A DNA stretch of 64,000 bases from Liopterus haemorrhoidalis (lineage: Eukaryota > Arthropoda > Insecta > Coleoptera > Dytiscidae). The stretch is from the NCBI GenBank assembly GCA_963971575.1, contig OZ020611.1, positions 225,238,260 to 225,302,259 on the forward strand. The letters run 5' to 3'. The notes below the pieces were generated by a model. It worked only from the letters and a program-made list of their open reading frames with translations. It ran no database searches and had not been told where the DNA came from. The translations under genes were made by a program, and so were the position numbers. Below, piece by piece: positions 33,176 through 38,268 of this stretch (positions within the stretch are counted from its first letter, which is position 1; every line of letters starts with the position of its first letter).

Positions 33176-34463
33176 GATGTGAAGTGTGAATTTTCACACA
33201 TTTCAGGGTTTCGCAGGTTTTTCGTAAGTGAATCATGATTATTTGGGATGCCAAAACAAATTTTATGTTAAAATATTTTTTTGTTAATTTTAATTCGAAT
33301 GCCTAATACCATTATTTAGGTTTCTAAATATGCGCAGTATTTTTTTTTATACAGCAAGGTTCATTAAGATTTTGAACATTGTGCCTATGGCTTCCATTAG
33401 TTGTTTTAAGTCCATAACTCAGCCCCTCTGATTTCGTGTAATTAATTTCAAAAATTTCACTTGGTTATTAAATTTACGCTCTTAAAAATTAAATGCACAT
33501 TTGCCAAAATATAACTACAGTTTTGACAAAATAATTTAAACAAAATAAAAATGGAAAAAAAAAACAGAAAAAATAACATTGTCTCGAGACCGGAACCCTA
33601 GTTTGCAATTTCTGCAATTTTTATTAAACGCGAGAGCGCTAACTATTACACCATGACAGCATGCTGATTTACTTTGTTACATAAGTTATTAAATATTTTA
33701 CATGGTCAAGCCTGTAGCTGCAAACGTTAAATCGTCTGTACCTGCTACTTGACTGCTGAGCAAGGGATGTGAGTTCAATTCCTGCTTATGTCAAATAATT
33801 TGTGTAAAATATTTATACAAATTACAGATTCTGCTTAGCCGTTCGCAACCGGCTTTAAACTGTAGGTGCCTTTCTGTGTACGCTAAAAAATGGACGTAAT
33901 ACTGACCATAGTACTACTGAATGTACATATATTGAAAACTTGGTCACGAAACCTGGAAACGGGAGACCTTGGCTCATTTCGGGCTGTCGCGCCAATGATG
34001 ATGATGATGACATGGTCAAGCAAAAAACACAAAAAAATGCGTTATGTTCCGAAAACATAATCTGATCAAAAATTCCTGTTGTACTATCCCGGTTCACACG
34101 AATGTACATTACTTAGAATTTTTTCAGATTTTTACTTTAAACCATCTGGGCTACAGGGTGTGGGTACAAATGTTTTTTTGCACAATTTTGGCAGATATCT
34201 TGTAAAAAAAATTATTTTGCAAAAATAAAATTTTGATCGTTAATCCACGTACTAATGGCTTTCATTTGATACCCTACTCAAAATTTTTAAAAAATATTTT
34301 TTTTTCGATGAGCACATATTTCTTTATATTTTTAGGGTGATATTTTTTTAGATGTTTTAGTATTTTTCCTATGTGCGGGTCAAAGAGTTGTATAAGCATG
34401 ATAAATTTCAACTTTTTAAGTATAGCCGTTTGGCTACAATTTTTAACGAACAGACAGACATAC

Positions 34464-35403: not shown

Positions 35404-35732
35404 ATTTGCAGTAGTATAACAGAGCAGGTACTGGCGCATTACCCACGAAACCCTGAAATTTGCACTAATTCACATTTCGCAAACGTACGTGACCATCGCT
35501 GTGCGTCCCCCCGCCCCTCCCCCCGCCTCCCCTCGGCCTCACTCATCCGATCACCGCGAGACTCGAAGTCAAAAAACAGGGTCCTTGTCGTGGAAGTCGC
35601 GGCGTCCGGCGCGTGCAGCGAACGAGTTCAAACTTGTTCGAGGTCAAAACCGGGTCATCGCAATTTTTGCTGACCGTCTGCAAAAATTTGATTTTTGTAC
35701 GCAGATTCAAGGTTTTTTAACTTATCGTTTCG

Positions 35733-35740
35733 TATATATA
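35733..35740 (+). promoter_or_regulatory. TATA box of the plus-strand Maverick-like gene
   Basis: TATATATA lies about 60 bp upstream of the ATG at 35801, just inside the left arm. A TCACAG initiator-like word follows about 25 bp downstream. Inferred from sequence only. Confidence 0.5.
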
Positions 35741-35800
35741 GAGCAGAATTTCAGAAGTTGTATCACAGTGACAACAGCATCATAGTTCTATTACAGTATA

Positions 35801-36264
35801 ATGGCGGGAATACCTACAACTTTGGTTGTAATATCGAAGGATGAGGCGAAACTTCCCTTGCCTATGTTAGTTGTGGTAGTTAAGCATTTATTCAGGTGAG
35901 TTATTTTATTTATTTATTTTTCATAATTTTTACATGTATTTATATTTTTTAAAGATTTGGTTTGACTAATGTGATAGTCCGAGGAGATCGGGTGATCGTG
36001 AGTCTCGGGTACTCGCCGAAGAGTAGCACCCTGGCCGCCAAGTTCGGTAACCTGCCGGTCGCCTACTTCAGGACCGCGCTCGAAACCGACGAGGAGTTCG
36101 CATTGCTCGAGCGAGCTTGTCGAAGGTTCGCCTTCCAGCTGAGGGATGAGGAAGAGGGCAACTCGCGACGCCCATCGGTGAAGGAGTTACCACCACCACC
36201 ACCACCACCATCCGTAGGCTTGCTCTTGCTTCATCCGCTAGAAATAATATATTTTTATATATAA
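35801..36264 (+). CDS. Unknown spliced protein in the Maverick-like element
   Basis: Exon 1 is 35801-35895 (ATG to TTATTCAG, donor GTGAGT). The intron is only 59 nt (35896-35954, ending TTTTTTAAAG) and exon 2 is 35955-36264, giving 134 residues. The frame is uninterrupted across the junction, and exon 2 is GC-rich with strong third-position G/C. The product has a hydrophobic beta-like start (TTLVVISKDEAKLPLPM), a central GLTNVIVRGDRVIVSLGY segment, an amphipathic, charged helix (ALETDEEFALLERACRRFAF) and a seven-proline tract followed by a short hydrophobic tail. I recognise no family. Short introns and intact frames suggest it was coding recently. Confidence 0.65.
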
Positions 36265-36276
36265 TTATTTATAACT

Positions 36277-36660
36277 TCATATATTGCTTTTTTTCTTACG
36301 TGCCACAGGGTTCACCGTCGTATGCCTGCTGTACGTCATAGCGACGTATCCGACCTCCTCTTCCAAAATCGAATTGATGCACAGCGCGCAAACTCGGCGG
36401 TAAGTTCCAACGGAATTTACCTCTTTGTAAGTGCACAGAAAACATACGCTTTTTTCGTTGGAACTATCCAACCGAATTATGCTGCTGTTGTACCGGTGGT
36501 GATTGTCCGAGTCCGACTCGTACCCCCCATCATCAATTTCACCATCATCATCAATGTCATTTTCTTCCACATCACTCTCACTCCAACTATCACTACTATC
36601 ACTTTCACCATCACTAATAATAATCACGTCATCATTTTCTTCAACATTATCCATGTTCAT
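36277..36660 (-). CDS. Unknown acidic four-cysteine protein in the Maverick-like element
   Basis: The minus frame of 127 residues starts at the ATG 36660-36658. The N-terminal 60 residues are extremely acidic and serine-rich and include NDDVIIISDGESDSSDSW. That matches the SUMO-interaction consensus, a short hydrophobic run followed by acidic and serine residues. The C-terminal half has VCFLCTYKEV then YRRVCALCINSI, that is C-x2-C and C-x2-C separated by 16 residues, as in a zinc-binding finger, and then a basic tail ending RKKKSNI. Such acidic-plus-zinc proteins are often nuclear regulators. No specific function is claimed. The gene converges on its neighbour with 12 bp between stop codons. 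Confidence 0.6.
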   Translation of the reverse strand: MNMDNVEENDDVIIISDGESDSSDSWSESDVEENDIDDDGEIDDGGYESDSDNHHRYNSSIIRLDSSNEKSVCFLCTYKEVNSVGTYRRVCALCINSILEEEVGYVAMTYSRHTTVNPVARKKKSNI

Positions 36661-36696
36661 GACATATGAAAATGATTTGATTGTGAATTCATCTGG

Positions 36697-36704
36697 TATA
36701 TATA
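36697..36704 (-). promoter_or_regulatory. TATA box of the minus-strand Maverick-like gene
   Basis: TATATATA lies 37-46 bp upstream of the minus-strand ATG. The arrangement mirrors that of the opposite gene. Inferred from sequence only. Confidence 0.45.
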
Positions 36705-37101
36705 TTATTTTATTATCAACATCCGGTTTATATCATATTTTTATTAAATTATAATTAGTTGAGAACTGAGAACTTAATTATGTAAACATGCCAAATTTTT
36801 GTGTCCGGGTACAAAAATCAAATTATCTTATCAATAGTCGTTCGTAAACATGTTTACACCAATCGAAAAACATATTACGTCAGCAAAAATTGCGATGACC
36901 CGGTTTTGACCTCGAACAAGTTTGAACTCGTTCGTTGCACGCGCCGGACGCCGCGACTCATAAGGACCCTGTTTTTTGACCTCGAGTCTCGCGGTGATCG
37001 GAGGAGCGAGGCCGATGGTCACGTACGTTTGCGAAATGTGAATTTGTGCAAATTTCAGGGTTTCGTGGGTAATGCGCCAGTACCTGCTCTGTTATACTAC
37101 T

Positions 37102-37325
37102 ATTTGCACTACGAATTTCTCCCTCATTCAACTTCTTCTCCAGATTTGGTCTCCTGCGACATCTTTCTCTTTCCAAATATGAAGAAATGGCGACCTTCGA
37201 AAAAAATTTGCATCAAACGAGAAGTTCATCGCTGAAACACACATATATTTTGCAGAGTTAGAGAAAACGTACATTTTGGAAGGTTTAATGAAATTGGAAT
37301 ATCGTTGAGCAATTGTATACGGGTT
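37102..37325 (+). pseudogene. Mariner transposase C-terminal fragment
   Basis: The sequence encodes LHYEFLPHSTSSPDLVSCDI and FLFPNMKKWRPSKKI, corresponding to the PHPPYSPDLAPxDFxLFP block with the third catalytic aspartate. After a stop it continues with the tail (HIYFAELEKTYILEGLMKLE). It starts exactly at the right duplication of the Maverick-like element. The matching upstream half is not recognisable left of 35404, so the mariner was already truncated or has decayed. Confidence 0.7.
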
Positions 37326-38268
37326 TTTTGGTCATGCCTATAAAATCCTGAAAATTGCAGGAACTTTTTGATCACACTTCATATATGTGACCCATGATTT
37401 GAATCTACAAAATTTCAAATTCTGTTTTGACTTGTCAATTAGTCTTAGGGGACAAAATGTTCGCCATCTCTGCTCTAGTGCAATGTGGAGTTTTAGATAT
37501 TATATCATTCAAACCCTCGTCTTCCTTAACAATCACTTTACTCCAATATGTATTCTCGAAAATTCACATCTATCTTATACACAATCCGCAATATACATGG
37601 TTTGTTCATTTCTCATTTCAACACAGTATCACTACCCTTGTTTTCACTCGTAACTTCCCCCTCCGTGACTAATATCTTAGTTCCCGGACCCAGTAATATC
37701 TCTGTTTGCCGATTTAAGGTCCTCTCGTGGTTCAGTTCAGAGAATAATAATTAATTCTACTGCTGTGTTAAATCTTTTATGATGGTATATCGAGTGTGAC
37801 TTTTGATACCCAGCAAGAAGAGGGGTGTTCTTATACAAGGGGTGAAATCTTGCGGTGTAATGGTATCTTTTAAATTAAACTATCTTTAAGATCGGGAAGT
37901 AGTTGTCAAGATTGTTTAAAGGGTGGGATATTTATGTCTTAATTGAAAATATTAATAAGATTTTAAAGGGTGCATAAGGGTATTAAATGTCCTGTAAGTT
38001 TCCCTTTTTAATTATATAGTTTAAGTTGTTGTGCTGGAGAAAATTTAAGGTGTTTTCCCCAAGACAAAAGCAAAAAAATGGATGTGAAGTGTGAATTTTC
38101 ACACATTTCAGGGTTTTGTAGGTATCATTTTTATTCGTTATTGAGTACTAATAGCTTACATTTAATTTTTTTAAACTAAATTTAATAATTCCTAAATTTG
38201 CGAAAATTGCGAAAATTTCATCACAATAAAATTTAAATTAAAAAATCCCAGCGATTTATCTCGGTATT
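37326..38268. other. Unassigned stretch with a solo terminal motif
   Basis: No genes. GATGTGAAGTGTGAATTTTC with CACACATTTCAGGGTTTTGT at 38080-38119 is an isolated, inverted copy of repeat B's right end. A weak trace of the same motif is at 37337-37355. Confidence 0.45.

Follow-up and report, generated by a model that had tools for sequence, protein, structure and literature searches.

An internally deleted 1.7-kb Maverick/Polinton derivative in the genome of Liopterus haemorrhoidalis and its full-size siblings

The usual picture of a Maverick is of a large, self-synthesising element. Its protein-primed (terminal-protein) replication and its integrase are expected to need only the ends of the element in cis. 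Internally deleted non-autonomous DNA transposons and MITEs likewise keep their ends and need the enzymes of their relatives, and the defective genomes of adenoviruses keep the terminal repeats, lose the core and are probably replicated in trans. A deletion derivative of the kalilo linear plasmid, a work on which is listed among the references of PMC11071308, would belong to the same class. For the vertebrate Maverick/Polinton elements, the account in PMC8097293 gives intact lengths of 12.7-24.6 kb, 6-bp duplications, long inverted repeats, accessory regions at both ends and, as the commonest end motif, (AGT)2//(ACT)2. What, then, is to be made of an element that has such ends and little between them? 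Our literature search, outside which most subscription journals and repeat databases lay, returned no report of non-autonomous, miniature or truncated Polintons, and these may well be listed there. Maverick miniatures with clean 6-bp duplications would suggest that the ends alone suffice for integration, and would let mobility be tested with a very small substrate.

Such an element lies in the window, which here means the whole stretch of 64,000 nucleotides that was analysed; its features and those of its relatives are collected in Table 1. Two exact copies of ATTTGC enclose a body of 1,692 bp (35410-37101; 1,704 bp with both duplications) in which GC stands at 43.6%, against 32.0% in the flanks measured. 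Alignment of the two arms over 223 bases shows 7 mismatches and 2 gap runs, one of them of 37 bp, and the left arm is up to 94% identical to the arms of other elements in the genome. The ends read AGTAGT...ACTACT, or (AGT)2...(ACT)2, as in the vertebrate elements. A preliminary description had reported the exact duplication, inverted arms of about 270 bp running from AG to CT, a GC-rich 1.7-kb body and a lack of replication or capsid genes, and all of this is borne out: translation of the element in all six frames showed no polymerase, integrase or capsid gene. Unlike the intact vertebrate Mavericks, therefore, the window copy is 1.7 kb long and has no core genes, and a complete core gene set within about 13-25 kb, as in an autonomous Maverick, is not what is found here.

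Table 1 Features of the window element, other miniatures and full-size pairs with the same arms.
Feature	Position	Length	Strand	Duplication	Remarks
Left target-site duplication	35404..35409	6 bp	.	ATTTGC	from sequence
Left terminal inverted repeat	35410..35674	265 bp	+		starts AGTAGTATAACAG; from arm alignment
TATA-like string (putative), upstream of gene 1	35733..35741		+		by eye
Gene 1 exon 1	35801..35895		+		ATG start, MAGIPTTLVV...
Gene 1 intron	35896..35954	59 nt	+		GTGAGT...AAAG
Gene 1 exon 2, 3'-truncated	35955..36216		+		shared sequence stops near ...PPPPPPPSV
Out-of-context tail of gene 1 frame	36217..36264		+		right-end DNA, then stop
Deletion junction, left end joined to right end	36213..36221		.		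CGTA (36213-36216) on both parental sides
Gene 2 exon 2 remnant	36222..36234		-		few codons; second CxxC...CxxC motif lost
Gene 2 intron position	36235..36299		-		GTAAGA...; 3' splice site TAGCGG here
Gene 2 exon 1	36300..36660	120 aa	-		acidic; VIIIS-type motif; one C-x2-C...C-x2-C motif
TATA-like string (putative), upstream of gene 2	36695..36705		-		by eye
Right terminal inverted repeat	36879..37101	223 bp	-		...ACTACT end; without the left arm's 37-bp GC-rich stretch
Right target-site duplication	37102..37107	6 bp	.	ATTTGC	from sequence
Right flank, degraded repeat, presumably mariner-like	37102..37312		+		element within or beside it; from genome search
Miniature	C12:30258466-30259685	1,220 bp		ACTGTT	gene 2 piece kept; arms differ 2/146
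Miniature	C15:9740515-9741483	969 bp		AAAGAG	pieces of both end regions; arms differ 0/94
Miniature	C1:132892174-132892971	798 bp		AATAAT	arm sequence and repeat; arms differ 4/257
Miniature	C2:7127757-7128371	615 bp		CTTACC	arm sequence and repeat; arms differ 0/173
Miniature	C1:74421447-74421994	548 bp		CCACGC	arm sequence and repeat; arms differ 7/171
Full-size pair	C1	25,950 bp		ATAGTA	
Full-size pair	C5	14,376 bp		TGTTTA	
Full-size pair	C13	17,980 bp		AAAGTA	
Full-size pair	C11	24,456 bp		CCCGAG	
Full-size pair	C11	18,447 bp		CTCAAC	
Full-size pair	C4	21,282 bp		TACTTA	
Full-size pair	C11	21,798 bp		ATCTTC	
Full-size pair	C13	18,454 bp		GGTCCT	
Full-size pair	C12	18,449 bp		CACGCA	
Full-size pair	C11	17,678 bp		TGCGTG	
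Full-size pair	C2	19,693 bp		GTTAAG	
Full-size pair	C16:37102365-37116565	14,201 bp		ATTATG	

The genome searched was a 1.02-Gb assembly of 91 contigs. With the 1,704-bp query the only full-length match listed is the window copy itself (40 of 176 candidates scored); the other matches listed are pieces that cover the gene 1 side to about position 813, the gene 2 side from about position 819, or the arms, and these are never joined as they are in the window. Fundamental to the identity of the element is that ends with the same arms also occur 14.2-26.0 kb apart, and that identical 6-bp flanks were found in 12 of 12 such pairs, which were formed by proximity and orientation (14 further loci with an end left unpaired are not counted). 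The C16 pair carries three successive arm copies at its right end. The 6-bp duplication is thus present in 12/12 large elements and 6/6 miniatures. Long AG-initial repeats and (AGT)2//(ACT)2 ends are likewise found, and chance is excluded by the arms and by an element family with matching 6-bp duplications.

Core genes come from interior pieces of three of the 12 pairs, with different genes in different elements. The C13 10.57-Mb piece (L039) holds an integrase (rve, E 3.1e-15) and a chromo match below the cut-off, the C11 35.09-Mb piece (L040) a double-jelly-roll capsid protein (PF21738, E 7.7e-118) and the C11 29.05-Mb piece (L041) a polymerase, DNA_pol_B_2 (PF03175), at E 1.3e-25 when the region was scanned apart and unlisted at the 0.01 limit when the whole 1,048-residue frame was scanned. 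This PolB is 51-62% identical to PolBs at eight other loci of the genome. A genome-wide search for the PolB family (82 of 301 candidates scored) listed 132 stretches and none inside the 12 elements, so that the PolB evidence for this family consists of one piece, L041. Some copies account for two or more of the 132 stretches, and many of the stretches lie about 7 kb from an inverted partner and have long open frames; other Maverick-like families seem to be abundant in the same genome. Integrase, capsid and PolB, one from each sibling, are all absent from the window copy, and because the core genes sit in large siblings with the same arms, the window element is non-autonomous. Its earlier designation as a Maverick/Polinton-like, non-autonomous miniature therefore stands, and the large same-arm elements with PolB and integrase that had been anticipated do exist (L041, L039).

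The coding content is another matter. Where the preliminary description saw two uninterrupted and intact genes, an intron of 59 nt interrupts gene 1 and, in the relatives, one of 63-66 nt interrupts gene 2, and both genes are truncated at the 3' end. The accessory genes have not been kept as such, since one internal deletion cuts the two of them, and their convergent arrangement comes from the joining of a large element's two ends. The appearance of two intact genes is an effect of this joining, in what is a real Maverick derivative and one of at least six miniatures. At the junction the left copies read CATCCGTA followed by TCAGCGG or similar, the right copies read GTAGCTCTTGC in one lineage and CAACGTA...AGGCTTGC in a sister lineage, and the window element reads CATCCGTAGGCTTGCTCTTGC. 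Sharing of CGTA by both sides is as would be expected of end joining or of copying jumps at short homologies. A description of the junction as a 3-bp GTA overlap with a 5-bp filler was dropped, as right ends of the sister lineage have GGCTTGC beside the junction. When a 141-bp junction query was used, the window copy alone among the matches listed (40 of 53 candidates scored) matched on both sides, while 7 of the 40 listed matches begin at CGTA and are confined to the right side. Among the 40 of 64 candidates scored there was no exact right-hand parent; the best right-half relatives listed are on C15 (89% over the whole 649 bases) and on C11 at 31.26 Mb (92% over part), and the identity of the right half to its relatives varies from bin to bin in a mosaic-like manner.

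Gene 1 can be followed in 24 left-end loci, where the intron measures 59 nt in 18 (two of these without a recognised start), 63 nt in four and 55 nt in one, and was not found in the remaining one. In the 20 loci with both start and intron recognised, the protein is 164-178 aa long in 14 and shorter in the others (74-132 aa in five, 156 aa in one), and the longer proteins end in a DSDEE...KRAKK-type tail. The window gene has 118 codons in common with its relatives and then reads about 16 residues from right-end DNA, the acidic/basic tail having been lost through the internal deletion. Pooled pN/pS is 0.178 over 94 codons in 18 loci and the window (uncorrected Nei-Gojobori counts), six of the 24 loci having been dropped for want of a recognisable start, intron or core motif; this value and that for gene 2 are descriptive, since many pairs are close relatives. 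One outside protein, Diabrotica virgifera LOC114335716, was matched by a three-protein profile of gene 1 (E 2.4e-22, 40% identity over 55%; 7,994 candidates scored), and this would point to a beetle host. In two large elements, C5:24334360-24348735 and C4:25312380-25333661, the gene 1 region is present at both ends. Compared with about 0.41 kb in the C13 and C1 elements, their inverted repeats measure about 0.84 kb in C5 and at least 1.3 kb in C4, where the fetched piece stops.

In relatives, the gene 2 intron is 63-66 nt long and runs GTAAGA...CAACAG (12 introns at 11 loci), and the second exon mostly ends ...DYRCDVCGDSLVLAIPTDVCPRCVNTE. The 3' splice site is TAGCGG in the window as opposed to CAACAG in the 11 relatives listed, and because exon 2 is cut and this site is changed, the window frame (127 aa) reads into the intron. 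Pooled pN/pS for exon 1 is 0.474 (uncorrected Nei-Gojobori) from nine of 15 positions tried, the window included and one of the nine being a fused double gene; the other six were broken or their start was not recognised, and L030 had no such splice site. The fused gene, at L029 (C11:31258400-31260700), reads as two gene 2 types in tandem with 216 codons open, which suggests that recombination may have occurred between lineages. Gene 2 introns are near-identical among relatives, while in bins of the coding exon up to roughly one base in five differs. Upstream of gene 2, positions 36702-36781 are identical at 79-80 of 80 bases to all eight right ends compared.

The open frames of the window copy reflect a constraint seen across the whole family (pN/pS 0.18 and 0.47), which does not in itself demonstrate the selection on the single window copy that had been considered. 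Neither window frame had a protein match at E <= 1; against Pfam and PHROGs the two gene frames gave hits below the cut-off or none, and the best hit in PDB sequence searches was at E 0.14. Matches in a phage collection were limited to pieces some 30 bases long (E 0.1); in viral contigs the exact arm patterns had 0 matches, and no relative was confirmed by a PolB search. Confidence was low in both structure predictions that were made (mean pLDDT 51.2 and 44.7).

Other miniatures were obtained from a search with the arm alone (40 of 119 candidates scored) and from the 1,704-bp search. With the window element included there are at least six (548-1,692 bp); their interiors differ, and every one has an exact 6-bp duplication of its own. 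Inside the 798-, 615- and 548-bp forms there is only arm sequence and a GACCTGTTCAACCTGTC-type tandem repeat, which also occurs inside a full-size element (L039:5137-5303). The C12 and C15 miniatures have 336 identical bases in common, so the six need not all be independent events. Many 1.7-kb copies with distinct duplications had been foreseen: distinct 6-bp duplications are indeed present at the other copies, and no further 1.7-kb copy was found among the scored candidates, where the five miniatures are of other lengths. The 548-, 615- and 798-bp siblings have a MITE-like look. The window element is unlike a MITE in that its parent is self-synthesising and virus-like, it holds gene pieces, and one copy with its junction is present among the scored candidates.

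With C16 left out, the arms of the full-size pairs differ at 0/256, 0/254, 0/255, 1/256, 2/256, 4/235, 7/260, 8/253 and 8/123 (ten gap runs) positions. The C2 pair and the C11 pair at 28.96 Mb are unusable for dating because of large gaps, the counts being 31/191 and 33/205 mismatches in global alignments of fixed slices as opposed to 0/99 and 1/97 in local ones. The suggestion of recent activity made from the window alone finds no support for this copy, as its arms differ at 7/223 positions against 0-2 in 254-256 in five full-size siblings.

The reading we favour, to which a probability of roughly two in three is given, is that the window element is a defective Maverick/Polinton genome, internally deleted and then copied and integrated in trans by its full-size siblings. 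One internal deletion removed the core (integrase, capsid, polymerase etc.) and joined the two terminal accessory regions near CGTA, leaving both terminal inverted repeats and 3'-truncated pieces of gene 1 on the left and gene 2 on the right, face to face. The polymerase of the siblings would copy the deleted DNA and their integrase would insert it, as happens with a defective viral genome, with a 6-bp duplication as the outcome, and the five other miniatures, which differ in length, would be accounted for by the same process. The step in trans is inferred from the ends being the expected sole requirement in cis. The likeness to the adenovirus and kalilo derivatives lies in the retained terminal repeats and the deleted core; unlike the defective genomes of those protein-primed replicons, the products here are integrated with 6-bp duplications. 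In favour of transfer in trans is that the compared arm stretches are identical in two miniatures (0/173 and 0/94). Against it, no second insertion of the 1.7-kb form is present among the scored candidates, and the 141-bp query (40 of 53 candidates scored) did not find the same junction at a second insertion site, as a trans-mobilised defective genome would have it.

These last observations suit a different account, possible if less probable, whereby a full-size Maverick inserted at this site and later shrank through the joining of ends at a short sequence common to both, so that the miniature never moved. Such a post-insertion deletion would leave the same arms and duplication, for which reason the step in trans is not proven by them; the single 1.7-kb form among scored candidates, CGTA on both sides of the junction and arms that differ by 3.1%, like those of the diverged full-size copies on C1 (3.2%) and C13 (2.7%), are all compatible with it. 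It is harder to reconcile with the retention of both outer ends and exact duplications in six miniatures, three of which are little more than arms around a short interior repeat, a state that separate deletions would have to reach repeatedly. Could the miniature instead belong to a true lineage that keeps two useful accessory genes, for example because they interfere with the full-size element or protect the host? The core of window gene 1 is few changes away from its nearest copies (0 nonsynonymous and 3 synonymous from L003, 1 and 1 from L007), yet both genes are truncated at the 3' end, the 3' splice site of gene 2 is altered, the form is a single copy and the constraint seen is that of the whole family, all of which makes this very improbable; the element can be explained without any function of the truncated proteins. 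Least credible of all is an unrelated element, whether of another superfamily that has 6-bp duplications or an insertion resembling a parvovirus or bidnavirus: the missing protein matches of both window frames would allow it, but the same arms and (AGT)2...(ACT)2 ends are found on large elements with Maverick core genes, and these genes rule such origins out. As an extension of the favoured reading, and a doubtful one, the six miniatures (0.55-1.7 kb) might form a satellite or defective-interfering-like Maverick population that is replicated, integrated and possibly packaged by full-size siblings, with truncated accessory proteins from some of them perhaps interfering with those siblings.

The element family is also of note for its matrix-metalloproteinase-like cargo and for copies with identical arms. 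The cargo gene occurs in full-size elements, at L041:632-2164 (Peptidase_M10 E 2.6e-33, hemopexin E 3.6e-6), and a frame like this matrixin/hemopexin protease is present at L040:3276-4508; the literature search found no report of a matrix metalloproteinase in a Polinton.

The insertion site itself is complex. Starting a few bases from the ATTTGC duplication, the right flank aligns to a repeat that we take, from a translated motif, to be mariner-like and that is listed at 39 further places (40 of 1,657 candidates scored), whereas the left flank has no mariner-like match to the five copies compared. The target would therefore have lain at a pre-existing break or been rearranged; this mismatch of the flanks, from which an empty site was not recovered, would count against a simple insertion. 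A GTGAATTTTCACACATTTCAGGGTTTYGTAGGT-like motif is common to the Maverick arm and several other dispersed repeats of the window (37030-37071, 38083-38124, 33178-33213 and others).
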